DNA from: Saprospiraceae bacterium
GTDB taxonomy: Bacteria; Bacteroidota; Bacteroidia; Chitinophagales; Saprospiraceae
NCBI GenBank assembly: GCA_958295895.1
Contig: CATQHI010000009.1
Coordinates: forward strand, 214,891-278,890
Direction: 5' to 3'
Length of the DNA stretch: 64,000 nt
The position numbers and the translations under genes were made by a program. Positions 9,142 through 56,480 of the stretch are shown here, in pieces (position 1 is the stretch's first letter; the number at the start of each line of letters is the position of its first letter). The notes under the pieces are model-generated. The model did no database searches. It saw only the letters and a list, made by a program, of their open reading frames with translations, and was not told the DNA's origin.

Positions 9142-9188
9142 GCTTGTGGTGGGACTTTACCTTCTGAGGCCGGTGCAAACATAAAACG

Positions 9189-9234
9189 GTCAACGTACTG
9201 ACTAAATTTAGCTAAATTTAGTCAGTACGTTGAC
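9189..9234. promoter_or_regulatory. Perfect 46-bp palindrome upstream of AAA_14/DUF4143 ATPase
   Basis: gtcaacgtactgactaaatttag|ctaaatttagtcagtacgttgac, both 23-nt halves exactly complementary; TATATTTA follows at 9235-9242. Confidence 0.95.
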
Positions 9235-9246
9235 TATATTTACGTC

Positions 9247-10383
9247 GTGGAACTTATTGTGCGGCAGATTGAGGAGCAAGTTATCGACTACCTACGACCA
9301 AATAAAGTAGTCGTGCTACTTGGTCCACGACGAGTTGGTAAGACCGTTCTGATAAGACAGATTCTAGCCCGTATTTCCGAGCCCTACTTGTTGCTGCACG
9401 GAGAGGACCTTGATGTGCGCAAACGACTGGCTTACCGGAGCACCCAACGGTACCGGAACGTACTAGGCGACGTTTCGCTACTCATCATTGATGAGGCACA
9501 GAAAATACCTGACATTGGGGCCATTCTTAAGTTGATGGTCGATACGATAGACGGACTCAAAATCTTAGCCACTGGTTCTTCCGCCTTCGATCTGGGAAAA
9601 TTTACCGGGGAGCCACTTACCGGTCGGAAGACCACCTTTCAACTCTTTGCGCTATCCGAAAGGGAGTTCGATCAGGTAGAGACCGTATTTCAGAAGAGCG
9701 CCAATCTGCGTAGCCGGTTGGTATATGGGAACTACCCGGAGCTTATCCATCTACCGGACCCAGTCGATAAAAAAATCTACCTGGACGATCTGATCAAGTC
9801 TTACCTGCTGAAGGATATTCTAGAGTTCGACCTGGTACGCAACTCGGATAAGATCCTACAACTCCTGCGTCTCATCGCCTTCCAGATCGGCGGGGAGGTG
9901 AGCCATACCGAACTGGGTCGCCAGCTGGGCGTGAGCAAGAATACCGTGGACCGCTACCTGGACCTACTCAGCAAGGTGTTCATCCTCCATTCCGTAGGTG
10001 CCTACAGCAGAAACCTGCGCAAGGAGATCGTTAAGGGCAAGCGGTGGTACTTCTACGACAACGGCATCCGCAATGCACTCATCGGCGACCTAAAGCCCCT
10101 GGAAAATCGGGAGGACGTCGGCATGCTCTGGGAGAACTACATCATCTCCGAACGCATCAAGTACCAGCAGTACACCCACATGCTGGTGTACAATTACTTC
10201 TGGCGTACCTACGACCGGCAGGAGATCGACTGGGTCGAAGACCGGGGGGGTACGCTACATACTTATGAATTCAAGTGGAGCCCCAAGAAGAAGGGGAAGT
10301 TTCCTAAGGTTTTCGGTGAGTCGTATCCTAACTCTACGTACACGACTATAAACCGGGAGAATTATCTGGATTGGTTGGAATAA
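9247..10383 (+). CDS. AAA_14 ATPase with DUF4143-like C-terminal domain
   Basis: LLGPRRVGKTVLIRQI Walker A, LLIIDEAQKIPDIGAILK Walker B, ILATGSSAFDL, C-terminal RQEIDWVEDRGGTLHTYEFKW. GTG start. Confidence 0.85.
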   Translation: MELIVRQIEEQVIDYLRPNKVVVLLGPRRVGKTVLIRQILARISEPYLLLHGEDLDVRKRLAYRSTQRYRNVLGDVSLLIIDEAQKIPDIGAILKLMVDTIDGLKILATGSSAFDLGKFTGEPLTGRKTTFQLFALSEREFDQVETVFQKSANLRSRLVYGNYPELIHLPDPVDKKIYLDDLIKSYLLKDILEFDLVRNSDKILQLLRLIAFQIGGEVSHTELGRQLGVSKNTVDRYLDLLSKVFILHSVGAYSRNLRKEIVKGKRWYFYDNGIRNALIGDLKPLENREDVGMLWENYIISERIKYQQYTHMLVYNYFWRTYDRQEIDWVEDRGGTLHTYEFKWSPKKKGKFPKVFGESYPNSTYTTINRENYLDWLE

Positions 10384-10445
10384 TCGGGTCCCAAACACCG
10401 CACCCGCGCCCGCGCCCTTACCTTGTCACACCTAATTCCGCTACC

Positions 10446-12374
10446 GTGACCCGCATCCTCCTGCTCCTATTCATCCTATCCGGCACCCTCCACGCCCAGA
10501 ACAGCCCCCCACCCATCCTCACCCTCCGCCAGCAGGGCGAGCTAGAAGACGCCTGGCTAAAGGAACGCGCCATCACCGTCCTGCCCGACCTTATGCGCCG
10601 CGCCGGCGTCGACATGTGGCTACTCATCAGCCGGGAATACAACGAAGACCCGGTGCTGGAAACGATGCTGCCGAGTACCTGGATGGGCGCCCGCCGTACC
10701 ACCATGCTGGTGATTTACGATCCGGGCGACGGCAAGCCGTTGGAGACCCTGGCCTGTGCGCGCTATGACGTCGGCGACGTATTCAAAAAGGCCTGGGACC
10801 CGGAGGCGGAACCCGACCAGTGGCGGGCCCTCACCAAACTGATCGAGGAGCGCAACCCGCAGCAGATCGCCCTAAACCGCAGCGCAACCTTCGGACTAGC
10901 CGACGGCATCAGCGCCTACCACTACGATCAGCTACAACAGTACCTGCCCACGGAGCTAGCCGACCGCATGGTGAGCGGGGAGGACCTAGCCATCGGCTGG
11001 CTGGAAACCCGCATCCCGGCTGAAATAGAGACCTATCAGCACATCATGGCAGTGGCGCACTACATCATCGCCGAGGCCTTCAGCAACCGGGTCGTGACCC
11101 CCGGCGTGACTACCACCGAAGACGTCGTCTGGCACCTGCGCGAACGGGCCCGGGAGCTGGGCCTGGGCGTCTGGTTCCATCCCAGCGTCGACGTGCAGCG
11201 CGCGGAAAAGGACAGCCTCTACGCCTTCAGTAGCCGGCCCGGCGCGACCGTCATCCAGCCCGGCGACCTACTGCACTGCGACTACGGCATCACCTACTGC
11301 GGCCTCAACACCGATACCCAGCATAACGCCTACGTGCTACGCCCCGGCGAGACGGAGGCCCCGGAGTACCTACGGGAAGCATTCACCCAGGGCCGGCGCG
11401 TCATGGACATCCTTACCGGACATTTTCAGGACGGCACAACGGGCAACGAACTCCTGGCGCGGACGCTGGTGCAGGGCCAGGAGGAGGGGCTGCGGCCTAC
11501 CGTGTACACCCACCCCATCGGCTACCACGGGCACGCGGCCGGCCCTACGATCGGACTCTGGGACCAGCAGGGCGGCGTACCCGGGTCGGGCGATTATCCC
11601 CTCTACCCCAACACCGCCTACAGCATCGAGCTCAACACCCGCGTGGAGCTGGCCGACTGGGGCAAGGACATCCGCATGATGATGGAAGAAGATGGCTACT
11701 GGGACGGGGAGCAGTTCACCTACATCGACGGGCGGCAGGATACCCTGTACCTGATCGCTCCGCAGCCTGACCCTACGCGCTTCGAAGGCGAGATCCAGGC
11801 CTTCGAGCGTGCCGACAGCGTGAATGCCCCGGTCCCCGGTGCCATCCTTTTCACCGGCTCCTCCTCGGTGCGCTTCTGGGAGTCGCTGGCCGAGGACTTC
11901 CCCGATCACCGTGTGCTCAACCGTGGTTTCGGGGGCAGTGAGTTCTCCGACCTACAGTATTACGCCGACCGGGTGGTGTATCCCTACCGGCCCAGCGTGG
12001 TGTTCGTCTACGAGGGCGACAATGACATCAATGCCGGCGATACGCCTGAGCAGGTACTTGCCCAAGCGCGTATGCTGCGTGACTCCATCGCTGCCAACCT
12101 GGGAGCGGATACCCCTGTAGTCTTCATTTCTCCCAAGCCTAGCGTAGCCCGCTGGCACCTCCGAGCGCAGTATGAGGAAGCTAATGCGCTGCTGGAGGCT
12201 TACGCCGATAGTACCGACCACACCTACTTCGCTGACGTCTGGACGCCCGCGTTACGGAAAAACGGGGAGGTGCGCGACGACATTTTCGTGGCGGATGGGT
12301 TGCATATGAATGCGGCGGGTTATGCTATTTGGCGGGAGGTGATTGGGGGGTGGATTGAGCGGCTGGCACGCTAA
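10446..12374 (+). CDS. M24 (Xaa-Pro aminopeptidase-like) domain fused to SGNH/GDSL hydrolase domain
   Basis: M24 text LLHCDYGITYCGLNTDTQH...THPIGYHGHAAGP...SIELNTRV, then SGNH text ILFTGSSSVRFWESL...LNRGFGGS...VFVYEGDNDINAG...DGLHMNAAGY. Confidence 0.8.
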   Translation: MTRILLLLFILSGTLHAQNSPPPILTLRQQGELEDAWLKERAITVLPDLMRRAGVDMWLLISREYNEDPVLETMLPSTWMGARRTTMLVIYDPGDGKPLETLACARYDVGDVFKKAWDPEAEPDQWRALTKLIEERNPQQIALNRSATFGLADGISAYHYDQLQQYLPTELADRMVSGEDLAIGWLETRIPAEIETYQHIMAVAHYIIAEAFSNRVVTPGVTTTEDVVWHLRERARELGLGVWFHPSVDVQRAEKDSLYAFSSRPGATVIQPGDLLHCDYGITYCGLNTDTQHNAYVLRPGETEAPEYLREAFTQGRRVMDILTGHFQDGTTGNELLARTLVQGQEEGLRPTVYTHPIGYHGHAAGPTIGLWDQQGGVPGSGDYPLYPNTAYSIELNTRVELADWGKDIRMMMEEDGYWDGEQFTYIDGRQDTLYLIAPQPDPTRFEGEIQAFERADSVNAPVPGAILFTGSSSVRFWESLAEDFPDHRVLNRGFGGSEFSDLQYYADRVVYPYRPSVVFVYEGDNDINAGDTPEQVLAQARMLRDSIAANLGADTPVVFISPKPSVARWHLRAQYEEANALLEAYADSTDHTYFADVWTPALRKNGEVRDDIFVADGLHMNAAGYAIWREVIGGWIERLAR

Positions 12375-31497: not shown

Positions 31498-31615
31498 GCA
31501 GCTCCGCTGCTTTATAATGAACCACAGAGGACGCAGAGGGCCACAGAGACGTCTTCAGAAGCACCTCTGTGTTCTCTGCGCACTCTGTGGTTGATCCTTA
31601 AAGCAGCGGAGCTGC
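31498..31615. repeat. ~51-bp inverted repeat between convergent genes (possible bidirectional terminator or MITE-like remnant)
   Basis: gcagctccgctgcttta...aaccacagag...gcagag..cacagag (31498-31548) matches the reverse complement of 31565-31615 with few differences; 16-nt spacer. Confidence 0.9.
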
Positions 31616-50217: not shown

Positions 50218-50772
50218 ATGGCACTCACCGAATCCACGATGGTCGACATCGGCACTCCGGCTCCTGACTTCAAGCTCGTCGACACGATGTCCGGCACGAA
50301 ACTTACTTACGATGATGTGAAGGGGGGGAAGGGCACGCTGGTGGTATTCATCTGCAACCACTGCCCGTACGTGATCCACACCATTGACGCCCTGGTCGAC
50401 GTGGCCAACGACTACGAGCCCAAGGGTATTGGCACGGTAGCCATCAGCAGCAACGACGTAGAAAAGTACCCCGTCGATAGCCCCGATAATATGGAGGCCT
50501 TCGCGCTGAATAACTTCTTCACCTTCCCCTACCTCTACGACGAGACCCAGGAGGTAGCCCGCGCCTACGATGCTGCCTGTACGCCCGATATCTACCTCTT
50601 CGACGCTGAGGGTAAGCTCTACTACCGTGGCCGCCTCGACGAGAGCCGCCCGAACTCCGGTAAGCCGGTGACGGGCGACGACCTGCGCAGGGCGATCGAT
50701 GCGATGCTAAAGGGGGAGCCTAGCCCGGAGAAGCAGTATCCTAGCGCGGGCTGCGGCATCAAGTGGAAGTAA
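50218..50772 (+). CDS. Thioredoxin-like/AhpC-TSA family protein
   Basis: MALTESTMVDIGTPAPDFKLVDT; LVVFICNHCPYVIHTIDALVDVANDY. Confidence 0.9.
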   Translation: MALTESTMVDIGTPAPDFKLVDTMSGTKLTYDDVKGGKGTLVVFICNHCPYVIHTIDALVDVANDYEPKGIGTVAISSNDVEKYPVDSPDNMEAFALNNFFTFPYLYDETQEVARAYDAACTPDIYLFDAEGKLYYRGRLDESRPNSGKPVTGDDLRRAIDAMLKGEPSPEKQYPSAGCGIKWK

Positions 50773-50945
50773 AATGCTGCCTCCGGCAGCGGTAGACGTA
50801 GCAGCCTCCGCCTGCGAGAGCCGCCTTGGCGGCGACCGGAGTTAGACGGGAAGCATGATAGGTTTTGATTACTATGCTCCCATCCTACATATCCCAGCGC
50901 AGCCAGAGGCTGCATGTTGCTGCCGCTGCCGGAGGCGGCATTTTA
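50773..50945. repeat. Two oppositely oriented double mini-hairpin repeats filling the gap between convergent genes
   Basis: gctgcctccggcagc (50776-50790), gccgccttggcggc (50820-50833), gcagccagaggctgc (50899-50913), gctgccggaggcggc (50925-50939). Confidence 0.75.
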
Positions 50946-51482
50946 CTTCCTCATCCGCTTAGGCCCGTACCAAAGCCAGAAGCCCGAGACCGTAAACACC
51001 AGCGTAGCCAGTCCCATCACCGTAGAGTACAGCAGCTTTACGGTGTCGCCTAGAACAGAGCCATCGTGGATCGACTCGATCAGATCCGAGCGGCGGGCAC
51101 CGATACTGAGCACCTCGCCCGTAGCCCCATCCAACTGCACCTCCTGAAGGTGACCCTCGAAGAGAAACTTGATCGAGCCCTTGCCCGGCCGGTAGTCAAT
51201 ACGGTCGATGGTGGTAGAGTAGTCCGCTCCGAGGGAGTCGCGCAGCGCCGTCTGGGCAAGGGTAAGGAGGCGATCGGTAGGAAGCCATTCGGCTAGCTCC
51301 GTGCTGCTGCCGCGGCTAGTGGGTGGCATGAGGTAGTCGCTGTCTTTTTTCCAGCCCAGCAGCACGCTAGTCACCCCGATCACGAAGAAGAAGACAAATA
51401 GCGTGATGCCCGACCAGCGGTGAATACGCCGGGTACGCCGTAGCGCCTTAGCCTGCCGCTGCCGTCGGGTACGCTTTACCAT
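50943..51482 (-). CDS. PepSY-associated transmembrane protein
   Basis: RTRRIHRWSGITLFVFFFVIGVTSVLLGWKK; VKLLYSTVMGLATLVFTVSGFWLWYGPK. Confidence 0.85.
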   Translation of the reverse strand: MVKRTRRQRQAKALRRTRRIHRWSGITLFVFFFVIGVTSVLLGWKKDSDYLMPPTSRGSSTELAEWLPTDRLLTLAQTALRDSLGADYSTTIDRIDYRPGKGSIKFLFEGHLQEVQLDGATGEVLSIGARRSDLIESIHDGSVLGDTVKLLYSTVMGLATLVFTVSGFWLWYGPKRMRK

Positions 51483-55202: not shown

Positions 55203-55258
55203 GGGGGCTGCAAGGTAGGGCTTGGCGGGGGAGATGGGGCGGGGCCGCGGTGCGGGGT

Positions 55259-56424
55259 TTATAGAAAAGCTAACTCAGAAGCGGCTTGCCAACTAAGTAG
55301 TTCACCGATGGTATGCTGCTGATAATCCGTACCGCCGTAGACGACCGTGGGTTGCCGAAGGGGTACGTCAGCGATATCTGCGAACCAATCGAGCTGCTTA
55401 AAGAAGTCCCTCCGGTAGGTTGCGCCCGATTTGATCTCCACTGGTCGGAGACCGTTTCCCAGATTGATTAAAAGATCAATCTCGTGCTGGTTGCTATCCG
55501 CCAGAAGTAGAGTGGGGGTTGCGTGCCGCGATTGAAGAAGCCCTTAGCTACCTCGTTGATGATGAAGTTCTCAAAGATGGCTCCCCGCTGATAGTAGGTG
55601 AATAGCGACTCCGGTGAGGTAATACCGAGTAGCGCGCAGGCTAGCCCCGTATCCCGAAAGTATAGTTTTGGGGATTTGACCAGCCGCTTTTTGAAATTCT
55701 TGAAGTAGGGCTGTAACTGATAGGTGACGAAGGAAGTCTCCAGCACGGATAGCCAGGAGGCCGCCGTTGCCGTATTCACACCTGCCGCGGAAGCCAGGGT
55801 GCTTTTATTGATGGTCTGTCCGATGAACCCCGCACAGATACCCAAAAAGCGGGTGAAGGCTCCGAGATCTCCGATGTTCTTTACCTGCCTTACGTCGCGC
55901 TGTACGTAGGTAGCCAGATAGTCCTGATAGAATCGTTCGGCGGCAACGTCGCGATCGTATATTCTGGGGTAGCCACCCCGCCATATAAGCTCCGTTGAGG
56001 TCACTTCGGCAGGTAGATGCTCGCGCAGCTCATCGTAAGAAAGGGGTTGTAGATAGAATAGCGTCGCCCTTCCGGCCAGCGTCTGACTCACGCTTTCCAT
56101 CATCAGCAGGTTCTGCGAGCCACTAAGGACGAAACAGGCCTCCCGGTCATCGTCGACAATTCCTTGAATGTATGATAGTATGATAGGTAGACGCTGTACC
56201 TCGTCCAGTACCATCCGGTGTCCGTACTGCTGGAACAAGCCCCGAGGATCTTGCTCAATCCGCTGCTGTACATCGGGATTTTCTAGTGAAAAATAGGGGA
56301 AGTCGGGAAATAAGGATCGGATCAGCGTAGTCTTTCCGCTCTGCCGCGGTCCGCTTACGATGATGACGGAGTACTTCCCTACCTGGGCTAGAATTGGGGA
56401 GGATACTTGTCTGGCAATCATCAC
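55259..56424 (-). pseudogene. AAA_14 ATPase with DUF4143-like C-terminal domain, one frameshift near 55500
   Basis: VSGPRQSGKTTLIRSLFPDFPYFSLENPD; MVLDEVQRLPIILSYIQGIVDD; FVLSGSQNLLMM. Adding one G to the GG run gives LYFWRDSNQHEIDLLINLGNGLRPVEIKSGATYRRDFFKQLDW. Confidence 0.88.
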
Positions 56425-56438
56425 CTAAAGATAAACTC

Positions 56439-56480
56439 ATTTATGCAAATTGCCTAGTCGTCTAAGCAATTTGCATAAAT
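56439..56480. promoter_or_regulatory. 42-bp near-perfect palindrome upstream of the second AAA_14/DUF4143 ATPase
   Basis: atttatgcaaattgcctag-tcgt-ctaagcaatttgcataaat, one mismatch in 19-bp arms; minus-strand TATCTTTA follows (56433-56426). Confidence 0.92.

Follow-up and report, generated by a model that had tools for sequence, protein, structure and literature searches.

PDC-S01 is a phage defence candidate of PADLOC (Payne et al. preprint, cited in PMC12988326). It has been described as the fourth most common defence across prokaryotes and as an ATPase fused to a PD-(D/E)XK domain, with validation pending for most such candidates (PMC12988326); no winged-helix specificity, self-binding or upstream array is mentioned in the passages of that work consulted. 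The corresponding Pfam families, AAA_14 (PF13173) and DUF4143 (PF13635), are descriptive and have no assigned function. One expression datum exists: a Thermus AAA_14/DUF4143 gene (TT_P0211) rose 6.6-fold with plasmid in Argonaute-positive cells (PMC4406477). Autoregulated HTH operators of the toxin–antitoxin, phage-repressor and restriction-controller type would provide a functional parallel to the locus described here, in that palindromic sites at the protein's own promoter are self-recognized with one specificity per paralogue. In the present case the inferred binder is itself an AAA+ ATPase and putative nuclease, and the sites form an open-ended, alternating lattice with a 16 bp step and up to 12 half-sites. 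No description of such an array or of the associated recognition code was found in the open-access literature on DUF4143, COG1373, SSO1545 and palindromes, and a description elsewhere cannot be excluded.

The window analysed was a 64 000-nucleotide stretch of a Saprospiraceae genome (assembly GCA_958295895.1, contig CATQHI010000009.1). Positions 9189–9234 of the window equal their own reverse complement over 46 bp with no spacer, as stated in the preliminary description. About 3e-9 such palindromes are expected in 64 kb at the composition of the window; the GC content is 61% in the window and 33% at 9180–9260. Neither the 23-nt arm nor the 26-bp core (each with up to three mismatches) occurs anywhere else in the 4.77-Mb assembly. 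An assembly fold-back artefact was rejected because the same array architecture precedes the same gene in independently assembled genomes, for example at loci L023 and L272 (L and G numbers denote the loci and genomes compared here). The palindrome is followed by TATATTTA (9235–9242, plus strand) and CGTC and ends 12 nt before a GTG at 9247, which opens a 378-aa ORF (9247–10383, plus strand).

The encoded protein matches the PDC-S01 profile PDLC04789 over its full length (residues 4–377, profile positions 2–373 of 375, E = 1.8e-151) and scores above the curated cutoffs for AAA_14 (residues 19–141, 9301–9669, plus strand; 83.7 bits, cutoff 27) and DUF4143 (residues 189–345; 136.4 bits, cutoff 28.1). 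A winged helix–turn–helix is located at about residues 200–252 (9844–10002, plus strand). The Walker A and Walker B motifs are intact and are conserved in 89–90 of 90 homologues. A putative PD-(D/E)XK core (10132–10275, plus strand) is formed by E296 (88/90), D328 (89/90), E341 (89/90) and K343 (87/90), which, from sequence alone, is consistent with the resemblance to such a core noted in the preliminary description. The best fold match to an AlphaFold2 model (pLDDT 88) was the SSO1545-type archaeal AAA+ ATPase (PDB entry 2fna; E = 7.8e-9, TM 0.51/0.54), but at 15% identity and an r.m.s.d. of 6.2 Å only a similar architecture is indicated and no shared function is shown.

In order to place the palindrome in context, the upstream regions of 79 homologues retrieved by protein similarity were compared. 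The palindrome proved to be the visible centre of a longer, partly imperfect array at 9183–9240. The unit is a 10-bp half-site, TGAnnnAATT; half-sites alternate in orientation and are separated by exactly 6 bp both tail-to-tail and head-to-head, giving a 16-bp step and a 32-bp period (about three helical turns) between sites of the same orientation. In the window the four half-sites are TGACCGTTTT (9183–9192, minus strand; weak), TGACTAAATT (9199–9208, plus strand), TGACTAAATT (9215–9224, minus strand) and TGACTATATT (9231–9240, plus strand), with the tail-to-tail spacer TAGCTA at 9209–9214 and the head-to-head spacer GTACGT at 9225–9230. The perfect palindrome comprises the two central half-sites, their spacers and the TGAC ends of the outer half-sites (46 = 4 + 6 + 10 + 6 + 10 + 6 + 4) and is perfect because the two central sites and both 6-bp outer spacers happen to be symmetric.

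Enrichment of palindromes upstream of homologues, the absence of which had been put forward in the preliminary description as grounds for rejection, was observed: a best-palindrome score of 10 or more was reached in 33/133 DUF4143 upstream regions against 6/400 control ORFs. As many arrays are imperfect, strict palindrome scoring was too blunt and was replaced by a lattice test; a TGA-based half-site pattern gave chance hits in AT-rich DNA, so pairs and phase were required. Among half-site pairs scoring 13 or more of 14, 67 had a tail-to-tail gap of 6 and 63 a head-to-head gap of 6, whereas all other gaps totalled 5. Three or more sites in phase were found in 64–65 of 90 upstream-400 regions, in 4/270 shuffles and in 0/88 downstream regions; homologues carry 3–12 sites in phase, with arrays of 12 and 11 at L025 and L205, respectively, far longer than a usual operator.

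A test that ignores the half-site sequence and asks only for self-similarity at each step from 12 to 23 bp peaked at 16, with 44/60 close homologues positive. In 40 further homologues of roughly 40% identity, retrieved as held-out data, step 16 was found in 28/40 and any other step in at most 3/40. Control ORF upstream regions gave 2/400 at step 16, one of which is the divergent neighbour sharing the array of L003, a paralogue in the window's own genome. About 30% of homologues give no significant lattice. The held-out half-sites are quite different (TCGCAAAAAT, CCGAGAAATA, AATTCTCGCG and others), so that geometry is conserved while sequence diverges. In more distant DUF4143 subfamilies palindromes are enriched (15/56 of the non-close set reach score 10) but the step-16 signal is weak (5/44), and the lattice is not claimed for them. 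Paralogues in the window's own genome have their own arrays: a 56-bp perfect palindrome spans the start codon of L003, and L014 and L008 have others. A second DUF4143 gene in the window (55240–56423, minus strand), frameshifted ahead of its nuclease core, has a separate, unrelated palindrome (ATTTATGCAAATTGCCTAG/CTAAGCAATTTGCATAAAT; 56439–56480, 19-nt arms, 4-nt loop) directly upstream. Other inverted repeats in the window comprise nested repeats between two genes at 31498–31615 (GCAGCTCCGCTGCTTTA and AACCACAGAGGACGCAGAG-like arms) and a 31-nt repeat, 94% complementary and 124 nt apart, at 50765–50950 (GGAAGTAAAATGCTGCCTCCGGCAGCGGTAG).

An operator, a recognition site of the ATPase itself or a hairpin had been offered as readings in the preliminary description, which concluded that this is a candidate self-regulated or DNA-processing unit. 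The hairpin reading (attenuator or cruciform) is very unlikely. Complementarity is perfect in the window, L003 and L156, but adjacent arms agree at variable base 4 in 177/200 cases, at base 5 in 116/200 and at base 6 in only 56/200, as expected for protein contacts and not for maintained base-pairing. No Rfam match was obtained up to E = 1, and neither the step-16 periodicity nor the co-variation described below is explained by a hairpin.

The half-site sequence was found to follow the protein's own winged helix. In a mutual-information scan over the aligned protein columns, K231 ranked first for half-site base 4 and H220 and T221 ranked first and second for base 5. In the AlphaFold2 model H220 (H220/T221, 9904–9909) and K231 (9937–9939) are the first residues of HTH helix 2 and of the recognition helix (S230-K231-N232-T233), respectively. 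The pairing was K–C 51, R–A 8 and G/S–G 4, with two exceptions; new loci agreed (K–C 10/10, R–A 1/1). Across subfamilies, SKNT occurred with TGAC (49/50), SRNT with TGAA (9/10), SG/SSNT with TGAG, DKNT with TCAC (5/5, in divergent lineages), DNQT with TCGC (3/4), DIST/DIET with CCGAG (3/3) and NKST with CG[A/G]CGG (3/3), although two or three of these entries are the same gene retrieved twice. Pairs of under 50% identity with the same tetrapeptide have a half-site similarity of 7.8/10 against 5.1/10 otherwise. L078 (K with A) breaks the code and L210/L214 (V, T) add unclassified residues. On a tree built without the HTH columns, residue and base change on the same branch in 3 of 5 cases (P about 2e-4 by branch-length-weighted placement) and K231 again ranked first, but this P value rests on only five changes. 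Many defence genes may be controlled by separate HTH regulators; nevertheless, binding of the array by a different cellular regulator is very doubtful, as such a regulator could not produce this pattern unless it co-evolved with the ATPase, paralogues in one genome have different arrays and no neighbouring regulator is conserved.

With respect to the promoter, arrays abut or overlap promoter-like elements or the start codon. The last half-site abuts the ATG directly in about 30 genes, a full TAnnTTTG lies near 18/63 arrays and in one large clade TAAATTGC lies inside the second half-site. In the window, TATATTTA overlaps half-site 4 and is only an approximate, inferred −7-like element (not TAnnTTTG), and there is no clear −33 element.

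Searching 41 related genomes for the DNA motif alone identified it in five, in four of which the ATPase is adjacent; in the fifth, the genus mate G284, a four-half-site array (L273, about 1501–1558) stands between unrelated genes with no ATPase nearby. The reversed-pattern control found none. The motif also occurs in three IMG/VR phage contigs (L276 624–649, L277 3384–3409 and L278 4261–4286), each with a third in-phase half-site and without a DUF4143 match in the record; the reversed control again found none. L276 and L278 are related phages with the array at the same place. No close homologues were found in viral contigs, and further phage searches with other array variants and controls found nothing, so the phage signal rests on three contigs and is a lead rather than a result.

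The gene behaves like a dispensable, horizontally spread, active unit. Neighbours are not conserved (among 292 flanking ORFs in 82 loci the commonest neighbour was shared by only four loci), which agrees with a single-gene system, and the gene is patchy (85/299 genomes of the order at E 1e-60). A 1.3-kb block consisting of the gene plus about 85 bp on each side is 94% identical between two species with unrelated flanks, and the window's own genome holds several broken copies. These observations could suggest that the array is the recognition or cleavage end of a mobile unit (a transposon end or a homing site of the ATPase–nuclease). This is unlikely, however, since arrays occur only upstream (0/88 downstream) and are thus not terminal inverted repeats, and the intact site persists in the gene's own genome. 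No target duplication or clean empty site was found: neither flanking gene is syntenic in relatives, the pheT copy of genome G152 sits in a 6-kb difference rather than a clean insertion, and the G046/G261 copy has no clean empty site and abuts a dispersed repeat. A dispersed short repeat abuts the downstream end of the gene at L234/L235 and recurs at several places in G261. In the genus mate G282 (L236 5039–9648) a DUF4143 ATPase lies directly upstream of two genes that, judged by eye, look like McrB/McrC restriction components. A 667-aa protein in the window (10371–12374) joins an M24-peptidase-like part and a GDSL-lipase-like part; in the same-genus genome G046 the two parts match separate genes on different contigs, so this looks like a lineage-specific fusion.

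Taken together, the co-variation favours a recognition site of the ATPase itself in the position of an operator. The palindrome is probably the centre of an operator array which the downstream ATPase binds through its winged helix, with protomers able to pair tail-to-tail and head-to-head and to load cooperatively across the promoter and start region. Binding is strongly inferred in the absence of any experiment. The most likely consequence is autorepression, which would keep an ATPase–nuclease of a candidate defence family scarce until needed, but repression rather than activation, cooperativity, any link to defence and any role of ATP, the nuclease or phage in releasing the protein are inferred only. 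Arrays of 11–12 half-sites exceed what simple repression needs. Together with the intact nuclease and Walker motifs, the candidate defence assignment and the orphan arrays, they leave room for a tentative alternative in which the array is mainly an assembly, sequestration or licensing platform from which parked protomers are released or activated by an invader; against this, in many genes the array sits at a fixed distance from the start codon and near promoter elements, as a plain operator would. It is also possible, although speculative, that PDC-S01 ATPases form a large family of self-addressing ATPase–nucleases in which each array acts as a storage and licensing site as well as an operator, paralogues are kept orthogonal by diverging helix–site pairs and some phages carry decoy arrays that interfere.

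DUF4143 ATPases are among the commonest genes of unknown function. A dedicated cis array with fixed geometry and a helix-to-base code gives a first biochemical handle on them: the predicted site of nearly any member of the close subfamilies can be read from its upstream DNA and tested in one gel shift. It also suggests how genomes keep ten or more copies without cross-talk, and the orphan arrays in phages offer a possible route to the biological role.
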